From NCBI RefSeq assembly GCF_025244865.1, contig NZ_CP104272.1:2852001-2916000 (forward strand): 64,000 nt of DNA. Direction: 5' to 3'. Under the pieces are notes generated by a model. It was not told the origin of the DNA. It saw nothing but the letters and a program-made list of their open reading frames with translations, and did not search any database. Origin of the DNA: Arthrobacter sp. zg-Y1110 (lineage in GTDB: Bacteria; Actinomycetota; Actinomycetes; Actinomycetales; Micrococcaceae). The position numbers and the translations under genes are program-made. Shown here in pieces: positions 35,791 to 55,656 of this stretch (positions within the stretch are counted from its first letter, which is position 1; each line of letters begins with the position of its first letter).

Positions 35791-35792
35791 GG

Positions 35793-36816: not shown

Positions 36817-36862
36817 TTACCGACCGTTCGTTCAGGATATGGAGGCGGAATGGGCGCGTCAA
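36817..36862 (-). promoter_or_regulatory. paaA promoter with TetR-type operator
   Basis: On the minus strand ttgacg (36862-36857), a 17-bp spacer and tatcct (36839-36834) form a good sigma-70-type promoter. The palindrome-like ACCGACCGTTCGTTCAGG (plus strand 36819-36836) overlaps the -10, so a bound repressor would block the polymerase. Similar boxes occur before paaI and paaZ; the one before paaZ lies at the same 65-bp distance from its ATG. Confidence 0.75.
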
Positions 36863-36916
36863 GAGGCAGGCTATGTAAAACTGGTGAGTAGATGTTGCGG
36901 TGCGGAAAGGACAGTT

Positions 36917-37666
36917 ATGGGTGTTCCAGAGCCCGACGCCGGCCGTCGGGCCATCCGCGCGGGCGCAGCTTCGGGCAGCAGCGGATCCTCTGCGGAGCAG
37001 GCGGGCCTTGAGGAGGTCGGCGCAGGTCCGGCAGGCGCCGGGCTGGCAGGAACCAGACCGGCAGGTGCCGAGCTGGCGGGCTCCGAGCAAGTAGGCGCCG
37101 AGCCGGCAGGCGCCGAAGAGGCGCGCTCCGAGCAAGCAGGTGCCGAGCAGGCGGAGACCGGACCGGCAGAGCGGACATCCGCCGCCGTCGTCATCGTCCC
37201 TACGCTTTTGGGACTGCTGGGTTTCTTCGCCGTGTCGGCAGCTGTGACTGCTGAAGAAGCGACCGTCAGCGTCACCGTTCCGGGGTTGCTGCTGGCCCTT
37301 ACCGCCATGGTGGTGGCCGGAGTCAGCCCGCTCTACGCAGTGAATCCCACCTGGGGATCCCTGCGGCGGCCTGCCTTCTTACTGGCTGCCTGTCTCCTGA
37401 TGGAGACCGTATTGTTCCTGTTCGCGCCGGAGGTGATCCTGTTCTCGCTGCCGGCGCTGCCGCTGGCTCTGTGCGGAGGAGGCGTCCTGCTGTCCACGAG
37501 CCTGTGGGGCCAGTTCCGCAAGGGTCCGGCACCCGAGCCGGTGCTGCTTCCCCGGCACCAAGCCGCCGCACGCTCCTTCACCTCCACTTTGCTGGTGGTG
37601 GCAGTGAACTGGGCACTCTTCCTCGCCGCCGGTGCACTCTGCGCCTGGCTGCTGCTCGGGGACTAG
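36917..37666 (+). CDS. Membrane protein with N-terminal pentapeptide-like GAxxA repeat
   Basis: This 249-residue protein of unknown function has about five hydrophobic segments from residue 88 on. Residues 35-84 are ten degenerate five-residue units of the form GAxxA (GAGPA, GAGLA, GTRPA, GAELA and so on) rich in Ala, Gly and Glu, placed before the first membrane segment and thus probably cytoplasmic. A gaaagga site precedes the ATG at 36917. It is divergent from paaA. The repeat is not the canonical A(D/N)Lxx pentapeptide repeat. Confidence 0.75.
   Translation: MGVPEPDAGRRAIRAGAASGSSGSSAEQAGLEEVGAGPAGAGLAGTRPAGAELAGSEQVGAEPAGAEEARSEQAGAEQAETGPAERTSAAVVIVPTLLGLLGFFAVSAAVTAEEATVSVTVPGLLLALTAMVVAGVSPLYAVNPTWGSLRRPAFLLAACLLMETVLFLFAPEVILFSLPALPLALCGGGVLLSTSLWGQFRKGPAPEPVLLPRHQAAARSFTSTLLVVAVNWALFLAAGALCAWLLLGD
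37019..37168 (+). repeat. Ten degenerate 15-bp units encoding GAxxA pentapeptides
   Basis: The repeat is in frame within the gene at 36917 and follows a strict five-residue period, with Gly-Ala at the start of most units and Ala at the end. Units differ at the DNA level, so this is an older or selected array rather than a fresh duplication. Confidence 0.8.
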
Positions 37667-37782
37667 CCTGCCCGGGGATTAACCTGCCCGGGGATTGGCC
37701 CACGGCCAACCCGGCGGCTGCCGCGGGGCTAAGCCGCGAGCATAACGGCAGCGCGGTCCTTCGACGCCGCCGCCGGGATGGA

Positions 37783-37788
37783 TATATT
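37783..37788 (+). promoter_or_regulatory. Leaderless -10 element of the S9 peptidase gene
   Basis: tatatt (37783-37788) lies six bases before the ATG at 37795, with no ribosome site between. A weak ttcgac (37760-37765) sits 17 bp upstream as a possible -35. The mRNA would start at or beside the start codon. Confidence 0.6.
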
Positions 37789-37794
37789 CGAAGC

Positions 37795-39972
37795 ATGACT
37801 ACTCCCCTTCCTCCGGTTGCCAAGAAAGTCCCCACCGGACGTACCCGCCACGGTGACACGTTCATTGACAACTATGAGTGGCTCCGGGAGAAGGAAAACC
37901 CGGAGGTGGTGGAACACCTCAAGGCAGAGAACGCCTACTCCGCCGCGATGACGGCAGATCAGGAAGAGCTGCGCGGGCAGATCTTCAACGAAATCAAGAA
38001 CCGCACCGAGGAAACGGACCTGTCCGTTCCGGCACGCAAAAAGGGCTGGTGGTATTACACCCGCACCGAGGAAGGCAAGCAGTACGCCATCCACTGCCGC
38101 ACGGCCGCGCAGGACACCGGGAACCTCGACGCCGATTGGACGCCGCCCGCCGTCGTCCCCGGTGTTCCGGTTCCGGGCGAGCAGATCCTCGTGGACGGCA
38201 ACGCCGAGGCCGAAGGCAAGCCGTTCTTCTCGCTCGGCGGCCTGGCGGTCACCGAAGACGGCAACCTGCTGGCCTACTCCGAGGACAACGCCGGAGATGA
38301 GCGGTTCACGCTGCGGATCAAGGATCTGCGCACCGGCGACCTGCTGCCGGACGTCATTTCCAACGTCTTCTACTCGTTGGCCTTTTCCCCCGACGGCCGC
38401 CGCGTCTTCTACACCGTGGTGGATGATTCCTGGCGTCCGTACCAGGTCAAGGCCCACACGCTCGGCACCCCGGTGGAGGACGACGTCGTCATCTACCAGG
38501 AAGACGACATCGCCATGTGGACCGGCTTCGATCTCTCGGCGGACCGCCGGCAGCTGCTGATCGGCATCAGCAGTTCCGAGTACAGCGAATACCGGGTCCT
38601 GGACTTCGACGACCCCTCCGACACCGTCCGCACGCTGATCCCGCGCAGCGAGCGCATCCTTTACGAAGCCGAGCCGCTGACCCTGGACGGCGCACGCAAA
38701 TACCTGGTGACGCACAACCGGAACGCCCTGAACTCGATGCTCTCGCTCGTTGCCGAAGAGGAATTCGCCAAGCCGCTGGCGGACCAGCACTGGGACACTG
38801 TCATTGCCCACGATGACACCGTGCGCGTCAACGGTGCCGCCGTAACCCGCACCCATGTGCTCGTGTCGGTCCGCAAGGACACCACCGAGCGGGTGCAGAT
38901 CCTCCCTGTGGAAGGTCTGGGCACCCCGGCGCAGAGCGCGCCCGTGGAACCTGCCTTCGACGAAGAGCTTTACACGGCCAACCTGGCCAACGCCGAGTTT
39001 GATTCCCCGATCGCCCGCCTCAGCTACACCTCCTACCTCACGCCTCCGCGCGTCTACGACTACGTGCTGGCCACCGGAGAGCTGGAGCTGCGGAAGGAAA
39101 CCCCTGTGAAGGGCGGTTACCGTTCCGAGGAGTACGTGGCCGAGCGGGAATGGGCGACGGCGGCGGACGGCACCCGCATTCCGCTCTCCGTCATCCGCCG
39201 GGCGGACCTGCAGCAGGACGGCAGCAACCCGGCACTGGTCTACGCGTACGGCAGCTACGAGCTGAGCATGGATCCGGCGTTCAACATCGCCCGGCTGTCG
39301 CTGCTGGACCGCGGCGTCGTCTACGTGGTGGCGCACATCCGCGGCGGCGGCGAGATGGGCCGCGCCTGGTATGACAACGGCAAGAAGCTGAACAAGAAGA
39401 ACACCTTCACCGACTTCGTGGATGCCACGGACTGGGTTGCCGCCTCGGGCTGGGCGGATCCGGACCGGATCGCCGCAATGGGCGGTTCCGCCGGCGGGCT
39501 GCTGATGGGCGCCGTCGCAAACCTGGCCCCGGAAAAGTACCGTGCCATCGTGGCACAGGTGCCTTTCGTGGATGCACTGACCACCATCCTGGATCCCGAG
39601 CTGCCGTTGTCGGCCCTGGAATGGGAGGAATGGGGAAACCCCATCACCGATCCGGAGGTCTACCGGTACATGAAGGAGTACAGCCCGTACGAGAACATCC
39701 GGGCCGTGGACTACCCGCAGATCGCGGCGGTCACCAGCTTCAACGACACCCGCGTGCTGTACGTCGAACCGGCCAAGTGGGTGGCGCAGCTGCGCGAGAC
39801 CACTACCGGCAGCGAACCGATCGTCCTGAAGATCGAAATGGACGGCGGCCACGGCGGAGCATCGGGCCGGTACGAGGCGTGGAAGGACCGGGCGTGGGAC
39901 TACGCGTTTATCCTGTCCGCGCTCGGCGCCCGGGAACTGCTCCCCGCCGACCGCCGGGAAAACGCAGCCTAG
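37795..39972 (+). CDS. ptrB: Prolyl-oligopeptidase-family serine peptidase (S9, oligopeptidase B-like)
   Basis: This 725-residue cytoplasmic peptidase has an N-terminal beta-propeller and a C-terminal alpha/beta-hydrolase domain. The triad is S565 in GGSAGG, D651 in SFNDTRV and H686 in DGGHGGASG. The N-terminal YEWLREKENPEVVEHLKAEN is typical of S9A enzymes; AYGSYELSMDPAFNIARLSLLDRG resembles oligopeptidase B, which cleaves after basic residues. I cannot separate oligopeptidase B from prolyl oligopeptidase with certainty. The ATG at 37795 is set by the -10 element immediately before it. Confidence 0.9.
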   Translation: MTTPLPPVAKKVPTGRTRHGDTFIDNYEWLREKENPEVVEHLKAENAYSAAMTADQEELRGQIFNEIKNRTEETDLSVPARKKGWWYYTRTEEGKQYAIHCRTAAQDTGNLDADWTPPAVVPGVPVPGEQILVDGNAEAEGKPFFSLGGLAVTEDGNLLAYSEDNAGDERFTLRIKDLRTGDLLPDVISNVFYSLAFSPDGRRVFYTVVDDSWRPYQVKAHTLGTPVEDDVVIYQEDDIAMWTGFDLSADRRQLLIGISSSEYSEYRVLDFDDPSDTVRTLIPRSERILYEAEPLTLDGARKYLVTHNRNALNSMLSLVAEEEFAKPLADQHWDTVIAHDDTVRVNGAAVTRTHVLVSVRKDTTERVQILPVEGLGTPAQSAPVEPAFDEELYTANLANAEFDSPIARLSYTSYLTPPRVYDYVLATGELELRKETPVKGGYRSEEYVAEREWATAADGTRIPLSVIRRADLQQDGSNPALVYAYGSYELSMDPAFNIARLSLLDRGVVYVVAHIRGGGEMGRAWYDNGKKLNKKNTFTDFVDATDWVAASGWADPDRIAAMGGSAGGLLMGAVANLAPEKYRAIVAQVPFVDALTTILDPELPLSALEWEEWGNPITDPEVYRYMKEYSPYENIRAVDYPQIAAVTSFNDTRVLYVEPAKWVAQLRETTTGSEPIVLKIEMDGGHGGASGRYEAWKDRAWDYAFILSALGARELLPADRRENAA

Positions 39973-40054
39973 GCGGACGGGGCATTCTGCGTAGCCCGCA
40001 TCGCCGAGCGAGGAACGAGCGAGGTGTCGAAGGGCGGCAGGATGTCCCGGTAGC

Positions 40055-41107
40055 CTAGGCGGACTCCCGGACCACCAGTTCCGGCGGGTAGACGACAGGC
40101 TCCAGATGTGAACCCGGCTCTTCGATTTCGCGCAGCAGCATCTCTGCGGCCCGCCGGGCCATCTCGACCATCGGGTTGACCACCGTGGTGAGGCCCGGCG
40201 TGCTGGAGGATGCGAGCCGGTGGTTGTCGTATCCCACCAGCGCCACGTCGCCGGGCACGGACAGTCCGCGCCCGCGCAGCACCTCCAGTACGCCCAGCGC
40301 CATCGGGTCGGAGGCGGCAAAGATGGCGTCTATGCCCGGGTCGGCGTCGAGCAAGCGGGCCGCGGCAGCTGCACCGCCCTCGGTGGTGAAGTGTCCGGAT
40401 TCGACGCCGGCCGGTTCCAGGCCGGCCTCGGCCAGTCCCAGCCGCCATCCTTCGGTCCGGTCCTGGGCGGCCGTCATGTCCGCCGGCCCGGTGACCGTGG
40501 CGATCCGCCGGTAGCCGCGGCCCGTAAGGTGCCGGGCAGCGAGCAGTCCGCCGGTTCGGTTATCCGTATCCACGAAAGCCAGCCCGGCGCGGTCCTGCCA
40601 CGGCCGGCCGATGAACACGGCGGGCAGCGTTGCGTCCGCCAGTTCGGTTTCCAGGGCATCGGCTTTGTGGTGGGAAACGATGATGGCTCCGTCCACGTGT
40701 CCGCTGCGCAGGTATCGGATGAACTGCCCTTCCTTCTCCCCCTGCCGGGCAATCAGCAGTACCAGCTGCACCTCGGTATCCTTCAACGCCTCCGTGATTC
40801 CGTTCAACGTCATGGCGAAGAAGGGATCCACCAGGACCCGGCCATCCGGCTCCGGGATCACCAGGGCAATGGAATCGGCGCGGCTGGTGGCCAGGGAACG
40901 GGCCGCACGGTTGGGCGTGAAACCCAACTCCCCAATCGCCGCGTCGATGGCGGCCTGCGTCTGGGCGCTGACCCGGGCACCGCCGTTGATGGCTCGGGAG
41001 ACGGTCGAGCGGGAAACACCGGACAGCGCCGCCACGTCTTCCAGCGTGGGGCTGCTGCGTCGGGGTTTCACCGCCCCGTTCCGGGGCCCGGGCTTAAGGC
41101 TGCTCAT
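40055..41107 (-). CDS. cebR: LacI-family repressor, CebR-like
   Basis: This 350-residue repressor has an N-terminal LacI helix-turn-helix (TLEDVAALSGVSRSTVSRAI near residue 20) and a periplasmic-binding-like sensor domain with the VDTDNRTGG and ASDPMALGVLEVL marks. Its ATG overlaps the bglC stop as ATGA. It is the last gene of cebE-F-G-bglC-cebR, and the operon promoter carries two copies of the 14-bp CebR box known from Streptomyces. Release by cellobiose is expected from that family but not shown here. Confidence 0.9.
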   Translation of the reverse strand: MSSLKPGPRNGAVKPRRSSPTLEDVAALSGVSRSTVSRAINGGARVSAQTQAAIDAAIGELGFTPNRAARSLATSRADSIALVIPEPDGRVLVDPFFAMTLNGITEALKDTEVQLVLLIARQGEKEGQFIRYLRSGHVDGAIIVSHHKADALETELADATLPAVFIGRPWQDRAGLAFVDTDNRTGGLLAARHLTGRGYRRIATVTGPADMTAAQDRTEGWRLGLAEAGLEPAGVESGHFTTEGGAAAAARLLDADPGIDAIFAASDPMALGVLEVLRGRGLSVPGDVALVGYDNHRLASSSTPGLTTVVNPMVEMARRAAEMLLREIEEPGSHLEPVVYPPELVVRESA

Positions 41108-42573
41108 CGTTTCGACGATACGACATACGCAGGTGTAGCGGTGCCCGGCACCGGCAGGGCCGGGGGCAGGGCATTGGCGGCCGCCGCTTCCGCGTACCAG
41201 AGCCCGCTCGCCTTGGGCGTGCGCTGCAGTGTTTCGTAATCGACGTGCACAATGCCGAACCGCTTGGCGTACCCCCAGGCCCACTCAAAGTTGTCCATCA
41301 GCGACCAGGCAAAGTAGCCGCGGACATCGACGCCGTCCGCCGCCGCCTCCTGCACCGCCGCCAGATGCGAACGGATGAAGTCGAGTCGATCCAGGTCCTG
41401 CACGGTCCCGTCGGCCACTACGTCATCATCGAAGGCTGCACCGTTCTCGGTGATGTACAGCGGCACGCCCGCCGGACCGGTGTAGTCGCGCTGCAGCCGG
41501 TTCAGCAGCCGCCGGAGTCCCTCGGGCTGGATCTCCCACCCCATGTTCGTTCGCGGTAGTCCGCGCGGCACGGCATGGATCCCGTCCGCGGCAGGATACG
41601 GGCTGGCCGTGGGACGGGCCGACGGCGCCGCCGTCGTCAGGGGTGCCGTCGGCGGGGTCTTGGTGAGGGCATCACCGTGGTAGTAATTCACCCCCAGGAA
41701 ATCGATGGGCGAACTGATGATGGCCAGGTCTCCGTCCCGGACGTGGGACTCGAAACCATAGGGAGCGAGGTCCGCCACCACATCCTCGGGGTACTTCCCG
41801 TGGAAGACGGGGTCCGCGAACATCCGGTTGAACTGCCCGTCGATCCGGCGGGCTGCGTCGACGTCGTCGGGGTTCCGCGGATCGGCGGGATCGGCGACCG
41901 TGAAGTTCAGGGTCAGGCCGGTGTCCAGGCCAGGATCACGGCCCTTGAGCGCCTGGACGGCAAGTCCGTGCGCCAACAAAAGGTGATGGTTGGCGGCAAC
42001 CGCGAGTTTTCGGTCCTGCAGCCCGGGTGCGTGCTCGCCGCTGGCGTAGCCCACATAGGCGGAGCACCAGGGCTCGTTCAGGGTGGTCCAGGCCCGCACC
42101 CGGTCGCCCAGCACGTCGTGGACGCTGAGGGCGTAATCGGCAAACCGATAGGCAGTGTCCCGGTTCGCCCAGCCGCCCTGGTCCTGCAGGGCCTGCGGCA
42201 GGTCCCAGTGGTACAGGGTCAGCCACGGCTGGATCCCGGCGTCGAGCAGCGAATCCGTCAGCCGGCTGTAGAAGTCGAGCCCCGCAGCGTTGACCGGGCC
42301 GCCGTCTGGCCGGATCCGCGCCCAGGAGGTGGAGAACCGGTAGGAGTCCAGGTTCAGTGACTTCATGAGGGCCACATCATCATCCATCCGGTGATAGTGG
42401 TCGCAGGCGACGTCTCCGGTGTCACCGTTCACCACTGCCCCGGGAATACGGCTGAAAGTGTCCCAGATGGAATCCTTCCGGCCGTCTTCCGAAGCAGCGC
42501 CCTCCACCTGGTAGGCGGCGGTCGCCGCACCCCACACGAACCCGGACGGGAATGATGCGTTGTCCGTGGTCAT
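41104..42573 (-). CDS. bglC: GH1 beta-glucosidase (intracellular)
   Basis: This 489-residue family-1 glycosidase hydrolyses cellobiose and cello-oligosaccharides in the cytoplasm, since it has no signal peptide. The acid/base is E167 in TLNEPW and the nucleophile is E376 in YITENG. The N-terminal FPSGFVWGAATAAYQVEG is typical. I chose the ATG at 42573 because it overlaps the preceding permease stop as ATGA. It lies inside the ceb operon. Confidence 0.94.
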   Translation of the reverse strand: MTTDNASFPSGFVWGAATAAYQVEGAASEDGRKDSIWDTFSRIPGAVVNGDTGDVACDHYHRMDDDVALMKSLNLDSYRFSTSWARIRPDGGPVNAAGLDFYSRLTDSLLDAGIQPWLTLYHWDLPQALQDQGGWANRDTAYRFADYALSVHDVLGDRVRAWTTLNEPWCSAYVGYASGEHAPGLQDRKLAVAANHHLLLAHGLAVQALKGRDPGLDTGLTLNFTVADPADPRNPDDVDAARRIDGQFNRMFADPVFHGKYPEDVVADLAPYGFESHVRDGDLAIISSPIDFLGVNYYHGDALTKTPPTAPLTTAAPSARPTASPYPAADGIHAVPRGLPRTNMGWEIQPEGLRRLLNRLQRDYTGPAGVPLYITENGAAFDDDVVADGTVQDLDRLDFIRSHLAAVQEAAADGVDVRGYFAWSLMDNFEWAWGYAKRFGIVHVDYETLQRTPKASGLWYAEAAAANALPPALPVPGTATPAYVVSSKR

Positions 42574-43511
42574 CCCTTCACCGCTCCCTGCATGATTCCT
42601 GCAACCAGATGCCGTCCTGCGAGGGCAAAAACGATGAGCAGCGGAATGGTGGAGAGCACCACGCCGGCCAGGACCACCGAGTAGTCCACAAAGCGCGCTG
42701 ACTGCAGTTGCTGCAGTGCCACCGGCAGGGTGGGGTTCTGCGCATTGAGGACAATGAACGGCCAGAAGAAGTTGGTCCAGGTGGCAACGAAGGTGAACAG
42801 TGCCAGCATCGCGGCGGCCGGCCGCGCTGCGGGCAGGGCCACGTGCCAGAAGGCCTGCCACATGTTGGCGCCGTCCATCCGTACGGCTTCGATCAGTTCG
42901 TCCGGCAGCGCGTCCTGCAGGTACTGGGTCATCCAGAAGACACCGAAGGCGGTGACCAGCCCCGGAATGATGACGGCTCCCATGGTCCCGGTCCAGCCGA
43001 GCTTGGACATCACGATAAACAGCGGAATGACACCGAGCTGGGTGGGTACGGCCATCGTGGCCACTACGAAGACCAGCAGTGCCTTGCTGCCCCGGAAGCG
43101 CAGCTTCGCGAAGGCGAAACCGGCCAGGGAGGAGAAGATCACCACGGAAGCGGCCGTCACGGTGGAAACCAGGATGCTGTTGCCCAGGGCTTTCCAGAAC
43201 GGGATGGTATCCAGCACGGTGGCCGCGTTTGCGAAGAAGTTGCCGCCGGGAATCAGCGGGACTCCCTTGACGATCGCCGTGCTGTCATGGCTGGCCACCA
43301 GGACGGACCAGAGGATGGGGAGGGCAGAGCCGAGAATCACGGCCCCCAGCAGCCCGTAGGTAACGAAGCCCGGTCGCCGGTTGTATCCGCCGGTTTTCCG
43401 CCCGCCCCGTGCCGGGTGCGGCGGCTGCGCACCGCCGCGGTTCCGACGGCGCCGGGCGGTTTCGGCGGCGCGTTTGCCTGCCGTTTGTTCGACCATGGGT
43501 ACGGAGGTCAT
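42570..43511 (-). CDS. cebG: Cello-oligosaccharide ABC transporter permease CebG
   Basis: This 313-residue MalG-type inner-membrane permease has about six membrane segments and the EAA loop DELIEAVRMDGANMWQAFWHVALPAARPA. About 45 basic N-terminal residues precede the first segment. The ATG at 43511 overlaps the cebF stop as ATGA; a longer in-frame reading would be antisense-like and lacks support. It pairs with CebF. No ATPase gene is in the operon, so a shared MsiK-type ATPase elsewhere is expected. Confidence 0.92.
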   Translation of the reverse strand: MTSVPMVEQTAGKRAAETARRRRNRGGAQPPHPARGGRKTGGYNRRPGFVTYGLLGAVILGSALPILWSVLVASHDSTAIVKGVPLIPGGNFFANAATVLDTIPFWKALGNSILVSTVTAASVVIFSSLAGFAFAKLRFRGSKALLVFVVATMAVPTQLGVIPLFIVMSKLGWTGTMGAVIIPGLVTAFGVFWMTQYLQDALPDELIEAVRMDGANMWQAFWHVALPAARPAAAMLALFTFVATWTNFFWPFIVLNAQNPTLPVALQQLQSARFVDYSVVLAGVVLSTIPLLIVFALAGRHLVAGIMQGAVKG

Positions 43512-44467
43512 TTCCGTCCTCCCTGCGAGGCAATGCGGCGGGTGATGAGGAAATTGAGGGCCGCGATGAGCACGATGATGACGAACAGCAGCCAGGCGAC
43601 GGCGGACGCGCGGCCAAGGTTGCGCTGTCCCCAGCCCAGTTCCCAGATGTACATGGTGAGGGTCTGCCATTGCCGGTCGGCCCCGCCCAGGCCGTAGGCG
43701 TCAAAGACGCGCGGCTCGTCGAAAATCTGCAGGCCGCCGATGGTGGCGGTAATGACGACAAAGATGATGGTGGGCCGCAGCATGGGAACGGTTACCGAGA
43801 TGAACTGCCGCCAGCGGCTGGCGCCGTCGAGAATCGCCGCTTCATACATGTCCCGCGGCACGGCCTGCATGGCAGCCAGGAAGATCAGGGCGTTGTAACC
43901 TGTCCAGCGGAAATCGACCATGGTGGCGATGGCGATGTGGCTTGCCAGGGTGTTGGAGTGCCACGGAACGGGATCCAGGCCGATGGACGTCAACAGCCCG
44001 TTGATGGCGCCGGACTGGTCAGCGAAGACATTGCCGAAGATCAGGCCCACTGCCACGGGGGCAACCACGTAGGGAACCAGCACGCCCATACGCCAGAACG
44101 TCTTGGCACGCAGGTTCGCATCCAGGACGGCGGCAATGCCGATTGCCAGGATGATCTGCGGAACCGCCGAGATCAGGAAGATGCTGAAGGTGTTGCCTAC
44201 CGCATTCCAGAAGTAAGGCTGCGAGAGGACGAACGTGAAGTTCTCCGCGCCGCTGAATCCAAGGTTGCCGCCGATCAGGTTCCAGTTATGCAGCGAGACC
44301 CATCCGGTGTAGATCAGCGGGAACAGCCCGACAATCGCAAACAGGATGAAAAACGGTGAAATGTAGAGGTACGGGGAGACTTTTACGTCCCAACGGGCCA
44401 GCCGGCTGCTGAACCCTACCCGGCGTACCGGTGTCCGCGCTGCCGGCGGTTTAACGGTGACAGCCAT
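43508..44467 (-). CDS. cebF: Cello-oligosaccharide ABC transporter permease CebF
   Basis: This 319-residue MalF-type permease has about six membrane segments and the EAA loop RDMYEAAILDGASRWRQFISVTVPMLRP. The ATG at 44467 has aggaag six bases upstream; an ATG 21 bp earlier has none. It follows cebE across a 93-bp gap that contains a long hairpin. Confidence 0.92.
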   Translation of the reverse strand: MAVTVKPPAARTPVRRVGFSSRLARWDVKVSPYLYISPFFILFAIVGLFPLIYTGWVSLHNWNLIGGNLGFSGAENFTFVLSQPYFWNAVGNTFSIFLISAVPQIILAIGIAAVLDANLRAKTFWRMGVLVPYVVAPVAVGLIFGNVFADQSGAINGLLTSIGLDPVPWHSNTLASHIAIATMVDFRWTGYNALIFLAAMQAVPRDMYEAAILDGASRWRQFISVTVPMLRPTIIFVVITATIGGLQIFDEPRVFDAYGLGGADRQWQTLTMYIWELGWGQRNLGRASAVAWLLFVIIVLIAALNFLITRRIASQGGRK

Positions 44468-44507
44468 GGCTATCTTCCTAACGTCCAAGGGGTGTCGAAG
44501 TGTGGTT

Positions 44508-44547
44508 CCGGTGCCTGCGGCCGCTCTTACGCGGCCGCAGGCACCGG
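44508..44547 (-). terminator. 17-bp perfect hairpin between cebE and cebF
   Basis: The arms ccggtgcctgcggccgc (44508-44524) and gcggccgcaggcaccgg (44531-44547) enclose a 6-nt loop. There is no T-run, so it is more likely an mRNA stabiliser or partial terminator than a full stop. It would favour cebE over the membrane genes. Confidence 0.8.
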
Positions 44548-44560
44548 ACGCCTGTGGATG

Positions 44561-45862
44561 CTACTGGAGCGCTTCGACTCCGGTGACGAACTTCTTCCAC
44601 GAAGACTCGGGGTCATCGGATTTGAGGACGTCTACCCGGTCCAGCGCCTGCTGCATCGAGTCATTGATGGCGAAGTAGTTCTGTCCCTTGAACGGGGTAA
44701 CAGTCACGGCTTCAGCGCGGTCGGCAAGGATCTCGCCCACCGGAGCGTCATTGAAGAACGCGTTGGTTGAGCCCGTCAGCTCTTCCATCTCGTAGGCCTC
44801 GACCTGGCTGGGGAAGGTGCCCTTGGAGGCAAAAGCCTTGATCTGCTGCTCCGGAGCGGTGAGCCACTGTGCCAGCTTGATGGCCTCTTCCTGGTTCTTT
44901 CCCTGCGTGGGAACGGTCAGGTAGGAGCCGCCCCAGTTTCCGCCGCCGCCCGGGAAGACGTTGGCGATGTCCCAGCCTTCGACACCGGCAGCGTTGCCCT
45001 CGATGCTGCCCAGCATCCAGCCCGGGCAGAAGGTGGTGGCGAAGGCACCGCTCTGGAAGCCTGCCTCATAATCGTCGGACCACAGCTGCAGGTGAGCGGA
45101 GAGATCCTTGTCCACGGAGTTCTCGAGCACCTGGTTGTAGATGTCCTTCACTTCGGGGTTCTCGGTGGCGATGACCGTTCCGTCGTTTTCCTCGTAGGCG
45201 TTCTCGACCTGGTTGATCATGCCCTGGTAGGCGGACATTGCGGAGTCGTACCAGGCGGCGTCGGACTTCGCCGTGAACTGTTCGCCGATTTCGAAGTAGT
45301 GGTCCCAGTCGCCTTCGAGCAGCTCCGCAACTTCCTCGCGGTCCGTCGGCAGGCCCGCTGCTGCGAACAGGTCCGAGCGGTAGCAGATAGCCTGCGGGCC
45401 GACGTCGGTGCCGTAGCCGATCAGCTTTCCATCCTCCGTGGTCGCGCCCTCGACCTTCCAGTCCAGCCAGCGGCCTTCCACCTCGGGGCTGGCCAGGTCC
45501 GCGAACTGGTCCGGGTACTGCTTGAGTTCCGGCAGCCAGTCCACTTCGATGCCCTCGATGTCCGAGAGGCCCGAACCGGCAGCGAGCTTGGTGTTCAGGT
45601 TGTCCCGGGCATTGTTGGAGGTGGCCTTCTTGTCATGCACGATCTTGATGTCGGGGTTCGCCTCCTGGTACTCCTCGAGCAGCTCCTCGTAGCCCCACTC
45701 GTTGAAGGTGCTGATGCTGAGCGTGACCTGGCCGTCCCCTCCTTCGGAAGCTCCGTCGTCTCCCCCGCCGCATGCGGTCAGGAGAAGGGCTGCGGCTGCA
45801 ACGGATGCGGCAAGCGCAGGTCCGCGGCGTGCACGGCCGGCGGAAGTGGGTTTGGTACTCAT
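44561..45862 (-). CDS. cebE: Cello-oligosaccharide ABC transporter binding lipoprotein CebE
   Basis: This 433-residue extracellular solute-binding lipoprotein has a signal peptide (residues 1-31) ending in the lipobox LTAC, followed by a GGGDDGASEGG spacer. The mature part fits family-1 sugar-binding proteins (ISTFNEWGYEELLEEYQEANPDIKI; GWDIANVFPGGGGNWGGSYLTVP). An aaaggag site sets the ATG at 45862; longer readings are not supported. It is the first gene of the ceb operon. Confidence 0.93.
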   Translation of the reverse strand: MSTKPTSAGRARRGPALAASVAAAALLLTACGGGDDGASEGGDGQVTLSISTFNEWGYEELLEEYQEANPDIKIVHDKKATSNNARDNLNTKLAAGSGLSDIEGIEVDWLPELKQYPDQFADLASPEVEGRWLDWKVEGATTEDGKLIGYGTDVGPQAICYRSDLFAAAGLPTDREEVAELLEGDWDHYFEIGEQFTAKSDAAWYDSAMSAYQGMINQVENAYEENDGTVIATENPEVKDIYNQVLENSVDKDLSAHLQLWSDDYEAGFQSGAFATTFCPGWMLGSIEGNAAGVEGWDIANVFPGGGGNWGGSYLTVPTQGKNQEEAIKLAQWLTAPEQQIKAFASKGTFPSQVEAYEMEELTGSTNAFFNDAPVGEILADRAEAVTVTPFKGQNYFAINDSMQQALDRVDVLKSDDPESSWKKFVTGVEALQ

Positions 45863-45980
45863 TGCTGACTCCTTTGTCATAATCCGGGTGTCGAAGCACG
45901 AGTGTCCGCGGTACCTCCGCGTTCCGTGCCGCTGCCTTACGGATGCGCCCTGCTGCCGAACCGGCCGCCAAGAAAAATGG

Positions 45981-45994
45981 TGGGAGCGCTCCCA
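45981..45994. promoter_or_regulatory. CebR box, proximal
   Basis: tgggagcgctccca is a perfect 14-bp palindrome identical to the CebR box described in Streptomyces. It lies downstream of the inferred cebE core promoter, about 118 bp before the cebE ATG. Confidence 0.92.
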
Positions 45995-46008
45995 CAAGCG
46001 ATGAGCCA

Positions 46009-46037
46009 ATCGTGATGTGTGCTGAATCACATGTCAA
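46009..46037 (-). promoter_or_regulatory. cebE core promoter
   Basis: On the minus strand a perfect ttgaca (46037-46032) is followed, after 17 bp, by cacgat (46014-46009). The -10 is weak. The element is bracketed by the two CebR boxes, so repression should be tight. Confidence 0.6.
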
Positions 46038-46038
46038 G

Positions 46039-46052
46039 TGGGAGCGCTCCCA
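46039..46052. promoter_or_regulatory. CebR box, distal
   Basis: The second copy of tgggagcgctccca abuts the -35 element on its upstream side. The two boxes are 58 bp apart, centre to centre. The rest of the 45863-46234 gap, from the box to the dedA terminator, shows no gene. Confidence 0.92.
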
Positions 46053-46167
46053 CACTTTTCGTAGAAGTGATCCCAGCTGCGTATCCGCAGGTCAAACCGC
46101 AGATGGCGGCCCGGCGGTTACAAAATCGTTACCGAGGGATGCCTCCGCGCACGGCTCCTGCGGGCGC

Positions 46168-47146: not shown

Positions 47147-47220
47147 GGCCTCCGGCCGATCCCCGACTGTCTGTAAGTTCGGTCCGCAGGGCGGTCTGCC
47201 TACCGGGACCGCCGGAATCC

Positions 47221-47266
47221 TTGACAGCCGAACGCATGGCGGGATTACCTAATGAACATTCGGTAA
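47221..47266 (+). promoter_or_regulatory. paaI promoter with TetR-type operator
   Basis: A perfect ttgaca (47221-47226) is followed after 18 bp by ttacct (47245-47250). A 22-bp palindrome (47245-47266; core ACCTAATGAACATTCGGT, 9 of 11 base pairs matched) overlaps the -10 and ends 14 bp before the paaI ATG. It resembles the boxes before paaA and paaZ. Confidence 0.75.
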
Positions 47267-47280
47267 AGAAAAGAGGTCCC

Positions 47281-47775
47281 ATGGCTGACACCGAGGTTCC
47301 CCGGGTCACATCCCCTGCCCATCCTCTCCTGGTCGACGACGCCGCCTCGGCTTGGATGGGCATCGATGTGGTGGAAACCGGCTCCGGCACGGCACGTATT
47401 TCGATGCTTCTCCGCCCGCAGATGGTCAACGGTTTCGGCATCGGGCACGGCGGGATGGTCTTCGCGTTTGCCGACACGGCCTTCGCCCTGGCCTGCAATC
47501 CGGAAGACGGCGGGCCGGCACGGGAACGGGAACACATCACGGTGGCTGCCGGTGCCGACGTCACCTTCCTGGCTCCGGCCAGGGCGGGTGACCGGCTGAC
47601 TGCTTCCGCCGAGCACCGTGCCGGCAACGGCCGCAGCGGCGTCTACGACGTTGAGGTGCGGTCCGAACGTCCCGACGGGACCGCCGCCGTCGTCGCCCTC
47701 TTCCGCGGACGCTCGCGCACCATCCCCAACCCCGCCCGGACACCGTCCGGCGCCTCGACCGAAGGCCGCCCATGA
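47281..47775 (+). CDS. paaI: Hydroxyphenylacetyl-CoA thioesterase
   Basis: This 164-residue hotdog-fold thioesterase releases CoA from stalled phenylacetate intermediates. PaaI marks are LVDDAASAWMGIDVVETGSGTA and NGFGIGHGGMVFAFADTAFALACN, the latter with the active-site Asp on the central helix. An aagagg site precedes the ATG at 47281. It is the first gene of paaI-paaK-paaR, and its stop overlaps the paaK ATG. Confidence 0.9.
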   Translation: MADTEVPRVTSPAHPLLVDDAASAWMGIDVVETGSGTARISMLLRPQMVNGFGIGHGGMVFAFADTAFALACNPEDGGPAREREHITVAAGADVTFLAPARAGDRLTASAEHRAGNGRSGVYDVEVRSERPDGTAAVVALFRGRSRTIPNPARTPSGASTEGRP

Positions 47776-49124
47776 GAGCCCCCTCCGCTCCGATCAAGTC
47801 CGCCGCAGCCGATCCTTCGACGCTGGACCCGGAGGAACGCATGAGCCGGGACGAACTGGAGGCCCTCCAGTTGAAGCGTCTGAAGCAGACCGTCGCCTAC
47901 GCGTACGAACGGGTTCCGCTGTACCGGCGCAAGTTCGACGACGCCGGCGTGCACCCCTCCGACCTGGGCGAACTGAGCGACCTCGCTCGGTTCCCGTACA
48001 CCACGAAGGAGGACCTGCGCTCTACCTATCCGTTTGGCATGTTCGCCGTCCCGCAGCAGCAGGTGGCCCGCATCCACGCATCCTCCGGAACCACGGGGCG
48101 GCCCACCGTCGTCGGCTACACGGCCGGGGACCTGGACCGCTGGAGCTCCCTGGTGGCCCGTTCGCTGCGTGCCTCCGGAGTGCGTCAGGGATACAAGGTG
48201 CACAATGCCTACGGTTACGGTCTCTTCACCGGCGGGTTGGGGGCCCACTTCGGCGCGGAGAGACTCGGCTGCACGGTGATCCCCGTTTCCGGCGGGCAGA
48301 CGGAGCGGCAGGCCCAGCTCATCGTGGACTTCGAACCGGACACCATCCTCTGCACGCCCACCTACCTGCTGGCCATTGCCGATGCGATTGCAGCGGCCGG
48401 CATCGATCCGCGCTCGACTTCGCTGAAGAACGCGGTTCTCGGGGCGGAGCCGTGGACCGAGGAAATGCGGCACGAACTCGAAACGCTGATGGACCTGGAC
48501 GCGTGCGACATTTACGGACTCTCGGAAGTCATGGGGCCGGGCGTGGCCGGCGAGTGCGTGGAGAGCAAGGACGGGGCCCATATCTGGGAGGATCACTTCC
48601 GGCCGGAGATCATCGACCCGTTTGACGAGACCCGGGTCCTGGGCGACGGCGAACCGGGCGAGCTGGTTTTTACCTCCCTGACCAAGGAGGCGCTGCCGAT
48701 CATCCGCTACCGGACCCATGACCTCACCCGCCTGCTGCCCGGCACTGCCCGGCCATCCATGCGCAGGATGGGACGCATCACCGGCCGCAGCGACGACATG
48801 ATCATCCTGCGCGGCGTCAACCTCTTCCCCACCCAGATCGAGGAAATCGCCCTGCGCATCCCGGCCCTGAGCCCGCACTTCCAGCTCGAAATCACCCGCC
48901 CGGGACGCATGGATGAGCTCACGGTCCGGATCGAGCGCCGTGAGGATGCCACGACGCCGGACTCCGCGGCGGCGGCATCGGAGCTCGCCGCGCAGGTCAA
49001 GATCCACGTCGGTTCCTCCTGCCTCGTTGAGGTGGTCGACCCCGGGACGCTGGCACGCTCCAGCGGCAAGCTCCGCCGGATCTACGACCTGCGCCGCGGC
49101 ACCGATACCGCCTCAGCGCAGTGA
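47772..49124 (+). CDS. paaK: Phenylacetate-CoA ligase
   Basis: This 450-residue adenylating enzyme activates phenylacetate to phenylacetyl-CoA, the first pathway step. The ATP-binding loop is HASSGTTGRPTVVGYT near residue 98, the adenine block YGLSEVMGPGVA near residue 244 and the hinge/C-domain GRSDDMIILRGVNLFPTQIEE near residue 336. The ATG overlaps the paaI stop as ATGA. A TetR gene follows within 30 bp. Confidence 0.95.
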   Translation: MRAPSAPIKSAAADPSTLDPEERMSRDELEALQLKRLKQTVAYAYERVPLYRRKFDDAGVHPSDLGELSDLARFPYTTKEDLRSTYPFGMFAVPQQQVARIHASSGTTGRPTVVGYTAGDLDRWSSLVARSLRASGVRQGYKVHNAYGYGLFTGGLGAHFGAERLGCTVIPVSGGQTERQAQLIVDFEPDTILCTPTYLLAIADAIAAAGIDPRSTSLKNAVLGAEPWTEEMRHELETLMDLDACDIYGLSEVMGPGVAGECVESKDGAHIWEDHFRPEIIDPFDETRVLGDGEPGELVFTSLTKEALPIIRYRTHDLTRLLPGTARPSMRRMGRITGRSDDMIILRGVNLFPTQIEEIALRIPALSPHFQLEITRPGRMDELTVRIERREDATTPDSAAAASELAAQVKIHVGSSCLVEVVDPGTLARSSGKLRRIYDLRRGTDTASAQ

Positions 49125-49153
49125 ACCGCCCGTTGACGTGGGAAAATAGCGCC

Positions 49154-49852
49154 ATGCCTGCCGCCGCCGGAGCTTCCTCCGAACCTGCTCCCGTTCCCGC
49201 TGCCGATGCTGGATCCGCCGCGTCCGCCGCCGCCGTCGGCCCTGCCTCCGACCCGGCGTCCGGGCCGCGCCGGGGCCGGCCGGGATACGACCAGCAGACA
49301 GTACTGAACGTGGCCGTGGACGTCTTCAACCGGCACGGCTATGAAGCCACGTCCATGGGAATCCTGGCCGAAAACCTGGGCATCACGAAGTCGGCGATCT
49401 ACCACCATGTGCCGTCCAAGGGTGATCTGCTGCGCCTGGCGCTGGACTATGCGCTGGACGGGCTCGAGGCGGTGCTGGATGATCCGCGGGCTTCGGCCGG
49501 TGCCGCGGATGCCCGGCTGGAATTCGTGCTGCGCGGCACCATCGAGGTGCTGACGGAGCGACTGCCGTTCGTCACGCTGCTACTGCGGCTCCGGGGCAAC
49601 ACCGACGTTGAACGCAGTGCGTTGGCCCGGCGCCGGGAGTTCGACCACCGGGTGGCGGGACTCGTGGACGCGGCCCGGCGCGAGGGTTCGGTGCGGAGCG
49701 ACATTGATCCGCGCACCACCACGCGCCTGCTGTTCGGCACCATCAACTCGATCGTGGAATGGTACAAACCCGGCGGTCCGCTGCCCGCGCAGAAGCTCGC
49801 GGACAACATCATCACCATGGTCTTTGACGGGTTGCACACCCGCCGCTCTTGA
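49154..49852 (+). CDS. paaR: TetR-family regulator, PaaR-like
   Basis: This 232-residue repressor has an Ala-rich disordered N-terminus (about 40 residues) and a TetR helix-turn-helix (VLNVAVDVFNRHGYEATSM...LGITKSAIYHHVPSKGDLL, residues about 50-95). The C-terminal ligand domain is variable as usual. It follows paaI and paaK as a probable third gene of that operon. TetR-type PaaR proteins that respond to phenylacetyl-CoA are known in other bacteria. A GTG at 49121 overlapping the paaK stop would add 11 residues; I use the ATG with a gggaaa site. Confidence 0.85.
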   Translation: MPAAAGASSEPAPVPAADAGSAASAAAVGPASDPASGPRRGRPGYDQQTVLNVAVDVFNRHGYEATSMGILAENLGITKSAIYHHVPSKGDLLRLALDYALDGLEAVLDDPRASAGAADARLEFVLRGTIEVLTERLPFVTLLLRLRGNTDVERSALARRREFDHRVAGLVDAARREGSVRSDIDPRTTTRLLFGTINSIVEWYKPGGPLPAQKLADNIITMVFDGLHTRRS

Positions 49853-49968
49853 GGGCAGTGCTTTCCACTAAAAGACAGGTAGCCTCCCTGTCCCTGCCTT
49901 GAATCCGAAGCGCTTAGCCTGCTCTTACCGAAGCATCGTGCCGCGGCACGCGTATGTGAGGAGTATTC

Positions 49969-50136
49969 ATGAAACTGCCTGCCCGGATCGCCGTTGCCTT
50001 TTTATGTTTTCTCGCCGTTGCGGCCTTTCTGGCCTTCGCATCGGACAACAAGGCATTGATCGGACTTCCTGGTGCCCTTTTCGTGGGCTACGTGTCCGCA
50101 CAGACCTACCAGCACCGGCAGAGCCCCAACAAGTGA
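49969..50136 (+). CDS. 55-residue membrane protein
   Basis: This small open frame begins MKLPARIAVAFLCFLAVAAF and has two hydrophobic stretches (about residues 6-24 and 30-45) and a polar C-terminus ending QHRQSPNK. A gaggag site lies seven bases before the ATG. It fills the gap between paaR and the next gene. Its function is unknown. The good ribosome site, two-segment pattern and clean stop support a real gene. Confidence 0.65.
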   Translation: MKLPARIAVAFLCFLAVAAFLAFASDNKALIGLPGALFVGYVSAQTYQHRQSPNK

Positions 50137-50213
50137 GCCGGAAGAGGAGGGTGGCGTTGTGGGCGACCCGGCGCGGCAGCTGCTGAGCCGGTCCGGCGTG
50201 CAAGGATGGGCGC

Positions 50214-52593: not shown

Positions 52594-52799
52594 ACCGAGA
52601 CCCTCCGCTGCACTGCGTTTGCGGAGGTGACGGGCAATAATGAAGGCATGTGCCGGATATGGAGACCCACTGCGACGAAGAATCGAGTCATGCGGTCGGG
52701 ACGACGAGCCATCCTTGATCGCGCTGATGCGTGCATACCTGGGTCCCCTGCCGGCTTGTCCTTGTCCGTTGCTCCGGCATACGTTACCGGCAATCGACT

Positions 52800-53450
52800 A
52801 TGAGCGGTAACACTTTGGAACAAAATGTTCCTGCGGACAGCGGATACCCGGAGCCGGGCGGGCGCGCACCGGCCCCTGCTCCCCTGCGGCTCCTCCAGGT
52901 GTTCGCCAATACTGCGGACCGGGAAGCCGGGAAGGACGCACTGGACAACCCCGGCGGACTGGCGGACTGGCTGGCCGGCTACGGGCTGGTCGGGGCAGGC
53001 ACGCAGGCTACTGAGGAGGATCTTGCCCTGGCGCTCGACCTACGGGAGGGGCTGCGCTCCCTCTTCCTCACGCACCACGACGGCGGGGACCGCGCGGCTG
53101 CGCACGACGACGGCGGGCACCTGCACGGCACGCCGGCACCCGACGTCGCCACCGGCCTGCAGCGCCTTGACCGTGCCCTGGAGCAGCTTCCGGTTCGGGT
53201 CATGGTCGCCGGAGGAGAGCCGCGCGTCGAGCCGGTGCCCCAGCCTCCGGTGCGCGAAGCACTCGCCCGCATCGGTGCCGTCCTGGTCCATGCCGACCCG
53301 GCCCAGCTTCAGCGCCTGAAAGCGTGTCGCCGGGACGTCTGCCGCTGGGTCTTCTTCGACACTTCACGCAACCGGGGCGGAACCTGGTGCGCCATGGAGA
53401 TCTGCGGCGCCCGCACGAAGATGCAGGCCTACCGCAAACGGAATGCCTAG
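52800..53450 (+). CDS. CGNR zinc-finger / ABATE-domain protein
   Basis: This 216-residue protein has an N-terminal ABATE-like domain (about residues 30-165) and a C-terminal CGNR zinc finger: CRRDVCRWVFFDTSRNRGGTWCAMEICGARTKM, where four cysteines bind zinc and the N of CGNR is A here. The family is thought to bind nucleic acid and regulate stress or antibiotic genes. It is divergent from an MFS exporter. A His/Asp-rich insert lies near residue 105. Confidence 0.8.
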   Translation: MSGNTLEQNVPADSGYPEPGGRAPAPAPLRLLQVFANTADREAGKDALDNPGGLADWLAGYGLVGAGTQATEEDLALALDLREGLRSLFLTHHDGGDRAAAHDDGGHLHGTPAPDVATGLQRLDRALEQLPVRVMVAGGEPRVEPVPQPPVREALARIGAVLVHADPAQLQRLKACRRDVCRWVFFDTSRNRGGTWCAMEICGARTKMQAYRKRNA

Positions 53451-53482
53451 CCCGAACTCCTGGCCCGCCCCCTTCCGGGGAC

Positions 53483-55558
53483 TTACTTCTCCACCAGGGT
53501 CAGCACGTCGTAGGTAGCCACCAGTTCGTCGTTCTGGTTGGTCAGCACCGCGTCCCAGGCCACCTCGCCGTACCCGTCCGTTTCACGCGGCGTGATCTTC
53601 TTGGCGGTCAGCGTCACACGGATGGAGTCCCCCGCGGCCACCGGCGTCAGGAACCGCAGGTTTTCCAGTCCGTAGTTGGCCAGCACCGGCCCCGGCGCAG
53701 GATCCACGAACAGGCCCGCACCCCAGGACAGCAGCAGGTAGCCGTGCGCCACGATGCCCGGGAAAAACGGATTCGCCTCCGCGGCTGCGGCGTCCGTGTG
53801 GGCGTAGAACGTGTCCCCGGTGGTCTCCGCAAAAGCGGCGATGTCCTCAAGGGTCACTTCCCGCAGATCCGACCGCACGGCGTCGCCCACCCGCAGCTCA
53901 CTGAGGTGCTTGCGGAACGGATGTCCGGCGTCGAACCGGCGGTCCGCCCCCGGATGCCAGATACCGGTGAGGGCGGTGAGCATATTGGGTGAGCCCTGCA
54001 CCGCGGTGCGCTGCATGTAATGCCGCACCGCACGGATGCCACCCAGCTCCTCGCCGCCGCCGGCACGGCCCGGACCGCCGTGCACCAGGTGGGGCACGGG
54101 CGAACCGTGCCCGGTGGAGGAACGGGCGTCTTCGCGGTTCAGGAACAATACCCGACCGTGGTGTCCGGCGATGCCGGTAAGCACTTCCCGGGCCACGTCC
54201 GGGTCATTGGTGCATACCGTAGCGACCAGCGATCCTCCGCCCCGCGCGGCCAGCCGGACGGCGTCGGCGACGTCGGTGTAGCCCACCATCGAGGCCACGG
54301 GGCCGAACGCTTCGATATTGTGCAGGGCATCCGCGTCGTTGTCCGGCCAGGTCAGCAGCAGCGGCTCCATGAAGGCGCCGTCCGGCGAGGTTCCCTCGCT
54401 TCCGTCGGCACGGACGACGTCGGGGGCGTCCAACGACCCCAGCGCCAGCTGCGCGCCGGCCGCCAGCATCCGCTGCACCGCTTCCCGGACGCCGTCGAGC
54501 TGCTCCCGGGAGGCCAGGGCACCCATGGTCACGTTTTCGGCACGCGGATCGCCCAGGACCACGCGCCCGCGGATGCGCTCCCCGGCCGCGGCAACCACAT
54601 CATCGACCAGCCCGGCAGGGACGATGGCCCGGCGGATTGCGGTGCATTTCTGGCCGGCCTTGGCCGTGATCTCGGTGACCAGGGAGCGGATGAAGGCGTC
54701 AAACTCGGGGGTACCGGGAACGGCGTCCGGACCCAGGATCGCCGCGTTCAACGAATCCGTTTCCGCCGTGAAACGGACACCTCCTACGGCGATCTGCGGA
54801 TGGGCACGCAGGCGTTCGGCGGTGGAGGCCGAGCCGGTGAAGGAGACCATGTCCCGGTAATCGAGGTGGTCCGGGAGGTCCCGCGCGGAACCGGAAATCA
54901 GCTGCAGGGATCCGGCGGGAAGGATGCCCGAGTCCACGATCATCCGCACGGCCGCTGCGGTGATGTACCCGGTGGGGCTGGCGGGCTTGACGATGCTCGG
55001 CACCCCGGCGAGGAATGCCGGGGCCAGTTTTTCCAGCATGCCCCAGACCGGAAAGTTGAAGGCGTTGATCTGCACTGCGACGCCCGGGATCCGGGTGTAG
55101 ATGTGCTCACCGAGGAACGAGCCGTCCTTGGCGAGCTGTTCCACGGCGCCGTCAATGATCGCGGTGGAGTTCGGCAGTTCGCGGCGGCCCTTGGAACCGT
55201 AGGCAAACAGGACGCCGATCCCGCCGTCAATGTCCACCAGGGAATCGGTCCGGGTGGCGCCGCTGCGGGCGGACACGGCGTACAGCTCATCGCGTTGCGC
55301 ATTGAGGTGCACTGCGAGTTCCTTGAGCAGCAGGGCCCGCTGGTGGAAGGTGGACTTCCCCAGTTCGGCCTGCCCTACGGTTCGGGCATAGTGGACGACG
55401 GCGGCGGTGTCCAGACCCTCACTGCTGACCAGCGCCAGCAGCTCGCCGGTGCTGGCATCGTGCACTTCGGTTCCGCGGACTCCTGCGGGATCCGGTGTCC
55501 ACCAGGACCCCCGAACGTAGCTGGGAACGGTTTCGACGTCGATGGCGGTGGCCGTCAT
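53483..55558 (-). CDS. paaZ: Bifunctional oxepin-CoA hydrolase / semialdehyde dehydrogenase
   Basis: This 691-residue fusion opens the oxepin-CoA ring and oxidises the resulting semialdehyde. The N-terminal aldehyde dehydrogenase (about 1-530) has the catalytic Cys in AKAGQKCTAIRR, and the C-terminal MaoC hotdog hydratase (about 545-690) has GDTFYAHTDAAAAEANPFF and IVAHGYLLLS. I set the start at 55558, with an aaagg site, where the family N-terminus begins. It stands alone, about 4 kb beyond paaR, with its own operator. Confidence 0.94.
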   Translation of the reverse strand: MTATAIDVETVPSYVRGSWWTPDPAGVRGTEVHDASTGELLALVSSEGLDTAAVVHYARTVGQAELGKSTFHQRALLLKELAVHLNAQRDELYAVSARSGATRTDSLVDIDGGIGVLFAYGSKGRRELPNSTAIIDGAVEQLAKDGSFLGEHIYTRIPGVAVQINAFNFPVWGMLEKLAPAFLAGVPSIVKPASPTGYITAAAVRMIVDSGILPAGSLQLISGSARDLPDHLDYRDMVSFTGSASTAERLRAHPQIAVGGVRFTAETDSLNAAILGPDAVPGTPEFDAFIRSLVTEITAKAGQKCTAIRRAIVPAGLVDDVVAAAGERIRGRVVLGDPRAENVTMGALASREQLDGVREAVQRMLAAGAQLALGSLDAPDVVRADGSEGTSPDGAFMEPLLLTWPDNDADALHNIEAFGPVASMVGYTDVADAVRLAARGGGSLVATVCTNDPDVAREVLTGIAGHHGRVLFLNREDARSSTGHGSPVPHLVHGGPGRAGGGEELGGIRAVRHYMQRTAVQGSPNMLTALTGIWHPGADRRFDAGHPFRKHLSELRVGDAVRSDLREVTLEDIAAFAETTGDTFYAHTDAAAAEANPFFPGIVAHGYLLLSWGAGLFVDPAPGPVLANYGLENLRFLTPVAAGDSIRVTLTAKKITPRETDGYGEVAWDAVLTNQNDELVATYDVLTLVEK

Positions 55559-55622
55559 TTCGCTGCCTTTCGAAACGGGAAGAAACCGCAGCCGTCCTCC
55601 TGCAGGCGTCACTGCCGCGGGA

Positions 55623-55656
55623 TTACTGACCATGCGGTCGGTATATCGACACCCTA
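55623..55656 (-). promoter_or_regulatory. paaZ promoter region with TetR-type operator
   Basis: ACTGACCATGCGGTCGGT (plus strand 55625-55642) is a near-palindrome. Its left edge (55623) is 65 bp from the paaZ ATG, exactly as at paaA. On the minus strand tatacc (55645-55640) or tagggt (55656-55651) could be the -10. No convincing -35 is seen. Confidence 0.65.

Follow-up and report, generated by a model that had tools for sequence, protein, structure and literature searches.

Three separated transcription units for phenylacetate degradation (paa) lie within about 23 kb of the 64,000-nucleotide stretch of Arthrobacter sp. zg-Y1110 DNA analysed here (the window; contig NZ_CP104272.1, positions 2,852,001 to 2,916,000, from a genome of 3.9 Mb): paaABCDE, paaI-paaK-paaR (paaIKR) and paaZ. 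Each unit is preceded by a palindrome-like box of 20 base pairs (bp), and these boxes are very probably the operators of one TetR-type repressor, PaaR, which would be released by phenylacetyl-CoA and would also control its own unit. The original prediction had placed 18-mers before paaA, paaI and paaZ; all three are present at the coordinates it gave and are best read as 20-mers, with one base added on each side. The common left edge TTAC described for them is likewise there, TT preceding each 18-mer. The regulator gene directly follows paaK inside the paaIKR unit, as judged from gene order and its Pfam domain, and paaK shares 4-base overlaps with both paaI and paaR. This bears out the earlier placement of a PaaR-type TetR gene within the paaI-paaK unit.

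Conservation of the boxes among genomes

The boxes are not establishable from the window sequence alone, because their symmetry is weak and the pattern is in no excess. Of nine possible symmetric pairs per 18-mer, five are realized at paaA, seven at paaI and six at paaZ, and six or more such pairs are found in 1096 of the 63,983 18-mers of the window. A loose 18-mer pattern, ACYNACCGNNCGNNCGGT, built on the Corynebacterium glutamicum consensus, gave 70 matches in the window at up to three mismatches (shuffled mean 74.84) and 341 in the genome at up to two mismatches (463 for the reversed control). Being no commoner than its control in either, it was dropped as evidence. It is their conservation across species, not the 18-mers themselves, that makes the boxes significant, and this conservation is observed directly, as are the genes, the boxes and the box positions.

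A genus set of 29 genomes contains paaA in 28, paaI in 27, full-length paaZ (at least 77% identity) in 28 and a PaaR ortholog (at least 76% identity) in 28. Scanning the upstream regions with the 20-mer TACYKAMYRNNYRKTYRGTA at up to one mismatch revealed a box before 28/28 paaA, 27/27 paaI and 28/28 paaZ genes, so that the check proposed with the original prediction, a search before orthologous paa genes, turned out in its favour at each gene. Within the boxes, the commonest base has an average frequency of 0.980 for paaA, 0.996 for paaI and 0.909 for paaZ, compared with 0.49-0.60 in the flanks. Seventeen of the 20 columns are invariant in the paaA box and 13 in the paaZ box (28 upstream regions each); the paaI box is identical in 25 of the 27 upstream regions and differs by one base in the other two. 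The box spelling is thereby particular to each promoter and is maintained there. The sole genome of the set without paaA, paaI, full-length paaZ and a close PaaR (G019; best E value 1e-14) gave no match in a genome-wide box scan at up to one mismatch. In all, 28 genomes combine paaA and full-length paaZ with a close PaaR and one or more boxes, and the 29th has none of these. In G026 (L241), tblastn over an 18-kb stretch detected neither paaI nor paaK in the interval from the DedA gene to paaR, and the top motif matches do not include the paaI box; the paaA and paaZ boxes, paaR and the ceb (cellobiose-type) operon are retained.

The same boxes are recovered by a motif learned elsewhere. A strict motif, a palindromic 20-mer, was derived de novo from 34 upstream regions of 15 loci (L124-L138), all from other genera (Kocuria, Agromyces, Microbacterium, Yaniella, Enteractinococcus, Leifsonia, Arsenicicoccus and Cryobacterium), with a log-likelihood ratio of 447 versus 32-43 in five shuffled sets. 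Among 63,981 window positions this motif ranks the paaA, paaZ and paaI boxes first, second and third, with 23.2, 19.3 and 16.3 bits, the next best position reaching 9.0. Two broader training sets, which include Arthrobacter-named loci and in one case the genus member L062, yield the same top three. Furthermore, the degenerate 20-mer at up to one mismatch falls only on the three paa promoters in the 3.9-Mb genome (3+3 strand matches, control 1+1). Over the 29 genomes, its exact matches number 37, of which 25 lie at paaI and 12 at paaZ; no other place is matched, and the control gave no exact match. Allowing one mismatch gives 101 forward matches versus 10 for the control, and 11 of the 29 genomes then have more than three.

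Beyond the genus, the best 80 of at least 578 confirmed PaaK relatives were taken with their loci; L059-L062 are the genus members G020, G009, G027 and G023 again, matched by position. Among the matches listed, the named loci closest in PaaK are those of Arthrobacter sp. zg-Y844 (97%), zg-Y238 (95%) and A. zhaoxinii (91%). At up to two mismatches, a box precedes 34/34 paaA, 73/73 paaI and 51/57 paaZ genes in these loci, and the exact paaI spelling TACCTAATGAACATTCGGTA recurs in 46 of the 73 paaI upstream regions. On the side of the protein, the best solved-structure relative of PaaR is SCO3833 (2iai), and the sequence KSAIYHH in the recognition-helix stretch of the helix-turn-helix is identical in all of the 25 orthologs selected for alignment, which range from genus members to proteins of other families. 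Such identity is expected if one protein family reads a common motif.

Promoter geometry and proposed mode of control

Each box had been predicted to overlap or abut the -10 element. This applies to paaA and plausibly to paaI; at paaZ the box lies downstream of the -10 (Table 1). Within the genus, TTGAC begins 25-26 bp before the paaA box in 28/28 genomes and 24-25 bp before the paaI box in 27/27. No TTGAC was found before the paaZ box in 28/28 genomes, and TANNNT begins 13-15 bp before that box in 10/10 genomes listed of the 28. The distances from start codon to box at paaA and paaZ are indeed equal, as had been claimed, at 66 bases instead of the 65 bp given (ATGs at 36752 and 55558). This equality looks coincidental, because the distance in relatives ranges from 40 to 204 bp between the beginning of the box and the extrapolated paaA start, and from 81 to 157 bp at paaZ. 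A leader peptide, ATG-AAC-ATT-CGG-TAA, that can be read inside the paaI box was rejected: its stop is lost in L063, L064 and L076, and its codons change in other loci.

Table 1. Genes, promoter elements and probable operators of the three paa units, in window coordinates
Feature	Position	Strand	Basis and remarks
paaABCDE, phenylacetyl-CoA epoxidase operon	32894..36752	-	NCBIfam TIGR02156-TIGR02160, each above cut-off
paaA operator	36818..36837	-	minus strand TCCTGAACGAACGGTCGGTA, plus strand TACCGACCGTTCGTTCAGGA; at most one mismatch in 28/28 genus paaA upstream regions
paaA -10 TATCCT	36834..36839	-	sequence; conserved TTGAC spacing; overlaps operator
paaA -35 TTGACG	36857..36862	-	sequence; conserved TTGAC spacing; 17-bp spacer
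paaI -35 TTGACA	47221..47226	+	sequence; conserved TTGAC spacing
paaI probable -10 TTACCT	47245..47250	+	suggested by sequence and conserved spacing; weak hexamer; 18-bp spacer; overlaps operator
paaI operator	47246..47265	+	TACCTAATGAACATTCGGTA; identical in 25/27 genus paaI upstream regions
paaI thioesterase, opens paaIKR	47281..47775	+	NCBIfam TIGR02286, 115.1 bits, just below cut-off of 118.9
paaK phenylacetate-CoA ligase	47772..49124	+	NCBIfam TIGR02155, above cut-off
paaR, TetR-family repressor	49121..49852	+	Pfam TetR_N and TetR_C_24; ortholog in 28/29 genus genomes
paaZ bifunctional ring-opening enzyme	53483..55558	-	NCBIfam TIGR02278, above cut-off
paaZ operator	55624..55643	-	minus strand TACCGACCGCATGGTCAGTA, plus strand TACTGACCATGCGGTCGGTA; at most one mismatch in 28/28 genus paaZ upstream regions
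paaZ probable -10 TAGGGT	55651..55656	-	ends 7 bp before box; operator just downstream, about +1

With boxes so placed, steric block of the polymerase would be the natural mechanism at all three promoters. In the absence of phenylacetate, a PaaR dimer would occupy each 20-bp operator, covering the -10 and the start at paaA and paaI and the region just downstream of the -10 at paaZ, and RNA polymerase would be blocked. PaaK would convert phenylacetate into phenylacetyl-CoA, which would release PaaR from the DNA, and the epoxidase, the ring-opening enzyme and paaIKR would then be switched on together. With paaR as the third gene of paaI-paaK-paaR, the repressor would be subject to negative autoregulation.

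Contrary evidence and rival explanations

Several points weigh against PaaR as the common repressor. PaaR as the binder, its action as a repressor, phenylacetyl-CoA as the effector and the exact transcription starts are inferred. An NCBIfam scan of the protein returned other TetR families only, all below cut-off, and no PaaR-specific match, and the paaI box deviates from the consensus within the palindrome. Matches of the 20-mer to the window's boxes are circular, because the pattern was written from those boxes; at up to two mismatches it has 21 strand matches in the window's genome versus 23 for the control, which is no excess. In sister genomes, extra sites at up to one mismatch lie away from paa genes, among the matches listed. 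Among the PaaK loci, six of the 57 paaZ upstream regions have no box at up to two mismatches. Six further loci with paaK and without paaR show no box in the 500 bp upstream of paaK (best four to six mismatches), but they are a weak control because other paa genes are missing from them as well. Finally, beyond the window, an acyl-CoA dehydrogenase gene is preceded by a site (L235:1497-1520; C1 of the window's genome, G000, at about 1,688,246) whose strict score of 20.5 exceeds those of paaZ (19.3) and paaI (16.3), and orthologs of this site reach 27.8-28.7 in G007, G023 and G024. PaaR may bind there, and exactly three PaaR sites in the genome are not proven.

Over the 21 genus orthologs compared, the strict score at the acyl-CoA dehydrogenase site ranges from 3.9 to 28.7 (the other eight genomes have only matches of 43-44% identity and were left out). 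A fourth PaaR site at this position was considered and the palindrome assigned, short of proof, to another TetR regulator: the arms read ACTAA/TTAGT, G019, a genome without a close PaaR, keeps a related palindrome, and at least six genomes carry a TetR-like gene some 0.1-2.4 kb downstream of the site, G000 not being among those listed. Another palindrome of the window's genome, TACCGAGCGGTCGCTCGGTA (G000:C1:3082263-3082282; L236:1501-1520), precedes the gene of a TetR paralog by about 70 bp and is probably the paralog's own operator, a near-cognate of the PaaR box.

Near-cognate palindromes at other genes, together with the eight matches of a PaaR query in the genome (itself included), lend some weight to the view that a paralogous TetR regulator, and not the product of the neighbouring paaR, binds the boxes. 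This is highly improbable, however, as paaA, full-length paaZ, a close PaaR and the box come and go together over the 29 genomes, and paaR sits inside the regulated unit. A different doubt concerns the paaI box, which might mainly be a promoter or other element, with only paaA and paaZ under PaaR control and paaR not autoregulated: the left half reads TACCTAATGA in place of the arm TACYGAMCG found in other boxes, hardly varies and shares bases with the probable -10. We consider this unlikely, since the motif from other genera still puts the paaI box third of 63,981 positions, the changes in its right half in distant loci follow a PaaR-like pattern (ATTCGGTA, GTTCGGTA and ATTCAGTA), and the single paaA/paaI box of the Agromyces, Leifsonia and Cryobacterium loci has the ordinary form. 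That the three promoter sequences are alike by chance would agree with a loose 18-mer no commoner than its controls and with a paaA symmetry of only five in nine, but is refuted by the cross-species conservation and the independent motif discovery and is next to inconceivable.

The regulon in relatives and in known systems

The arrangement of the paa units varies among relatives. The ceb operon, described in the original prediction as an interruption, lies between the paa units at 40058-45877 of the window; it is present in only some relatives, adjoining paaI in L059, L060, L064, L065 and G026 and not in L061-L063, L066, L068 and L071. In 17 of the 34 paaA-bearing PaaK loci, paaA and paaI (paaK in L138) are divergent neighbours. 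Eight of these 17, from Agromyces, Leifsonia and Cryobacterium (L125, L129, L130 and L134-L138), contain a single box between the divergent genes that is readable in two overlapping registers and appears to serve both units, eight contain two boxes (L069, L085, L117, L124, L127, L128, L132 and L133), and L131 contains one. Most simply, the split layout of the window would go back to an ancestral line whose paa units became separated by intervening genes, each unit retaining its operator. PaaR-like boxes with one mismatch were also noticed near thiolase-like genes (L131:18450 and L079:18659) and, at L126:18363, near a putative MHS-type transporter gene followed by a thiolase, these genes being read from their N-termini only.

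A local regulon of three units, as first proposed, describes the window; in sister species the regulon is larger. Upstream regions were scored for CRP-like sites by the number of matches, out of 10, to TGTGA-N6-TCACA, a score of 8 being reached by 0.9-1.6% of shuffled segments. In 16 genus genomes, a CRP/GlxR-like element is located at -20 from the paaI box (9/10 in 15 and 8/10 in one; L150-L165) and another at -22 from the paaA box (8/10 in 14 and 7/10 in two; L042 and L044-L058), the middle bases of these elements being variable. At both promoters the element separates the -35 from the PaaR operator. In the remaining genus genomes, including the window's clade, the best CRP-like matches at paaA and paaI are 5-7/10 at scattered positions. 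Matches at paaZ are weaker and vary in position (8/10 in three and 7/10 in 15 of 28 genomes), and the exact sequence GTGA-N6-TCAC was not found in the 73 paaI upstream regions of the PaaK loci.

Upstream of an MHS-type transporter gene (NCBIfam metabolite/H+ symporter, 396.7 bits, below the cut-off of 443.45) lies a predicted PaaR box, which five of the genomes listed spell TACCGACCGTTCTTTCAGTA. The transporter is a candidate phenylacetate permease and may serve phenylacetate uptake. In 13 of the 26 genomes with a close ortholog (L280-L305), the box is present at up to two mismatches with a strict score of 18.9-23.7, 46-73 bp before the gene (L280-L292), and a CRP-like site (8-9/10) begins about 42 bp before it. 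In G022 the CRP-like site is kept and the box has decayed (6.7). All 13 genomes, and G022 too, fall within the group of 16 whose paaA and paaI promoters carry CRP-like sites. The other 12 orthologs, that of the window's genome included, have neither the box nor a positioned CRP-like site; one of them, in G028, shows an 8/10 CRP-like match at another place, and for the ortholog in the window's genome (L304), without a PaaR box, the best strict score is 0.2. In G007 and G008, a gene pair for a thiolase and an enoyl-CoA hydratase, some 10 kb past paaZ, is preceded by a box with one mismatch (L277:2940 and L278:2903); the G007 pair has its best family matches in 3-oxoadipyl-CoA thiolase, at a score below cut-off, and in enoyl-CoA hydratases.

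These patterns may be joined in one tentative reading, which we regard as possible while leaning slightly to doubt. Promoter-specific PaaR spellings, selected over Arthrobacter-type genera, could set different affinities for paaA, paaI-paaK-paaR and paaZ. The operator at paaI, as the autoregulatory one, would be the most constrained because its left half would double as the -10. In the sister clade, a CRP/GlxR-type protein could act beside PaaR at paaA, paaI and the transporter gene, bringing catabolite control and an enlarged regulon; the window's clade has neither these CRP-like sites nor the transporter operator.

For C. glutamicum, Chen et al. 2012 reportedly described a TetR-type PaaR that recognizes the imperfect palindrome ACTNACCGNNCGNNCGGTNAGT and responds to phenylacetyl-CoA, with GlxR as a second regulator, and are said to have reconstructed PaaR regulons in many actinobacteria. 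The consensus obtained here, ACYGAMCGNNCGKTCRGT, fits the first 18 of the 22 positions of that reported palindrome. The C. glutamicum paa cluster is reportedly continuous, whereas three units are spread over about 23 kb here.

The regulon is of a known kind, as PaaR control of separated paa units is already published (PMC2770484, PMC9493321, PMC6651687). PaaR represses separated paa units in Burkholderia via a common inverted repeat, and catabolite repression of paa genes is reported there (PMC2770484); phenylacetyl-CoA is the PaaR effector in Burkholderia and Thermus (PMC9493321); and in Actinomycetes, among them Arthrobacter, PaaR is described as the prevailing regulator of paa genes (PMC13186573). 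Burkholderia cenocepacia resembles the window in having a TetR-type PaaR and one inverted repeat in core promoters that include paaA and paaZ, and the operator arm ACCGACC is common to both, although the arm spacing differs. Its repeat of 15 bp has closer arms and lies between -35 and -10, unlike the 18-20 bp palindromes over the -10 or the start in the window. The third target there is paaH, instead of paaI-paaK-paaR, and the repressor gene is co-transcribed with another gene, its autoregulation being left open there (PMC2770484, PMC9493321). In Thermus thermophilus, the TetR repressor PaaR (TTHA0973) controls two paa operons, one with paaI and a ligase gene; its 14-bp consensus, CNAACGNNCGTTNG or AACNAACGTTNGTT, is unlike the window's, and paaR heads the paaA operon, in contrast to its third place in paaI-paaK-paaR here (PMC6651687, PMC9493321). 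Promoter-specific spellings and a neighbouring CRP-like site were not met in the parts of the PaaR literature compared, and may still be published.

The outcome is a well-supported map of operators, together with their consensus, for the control of phenylacetate degradation in Arthrobacter-type bacteria, which are used in aromatic degradation. One regulon takes several layouts in relatives, with a shared divergent box, two boxes per intergenic region, separate boxes, or extra transporter and thiolase targets. Simple tests of affinity and catabolite control become possible through the fixed spellings of the individual promoters and the adjoining CRP-like sites.

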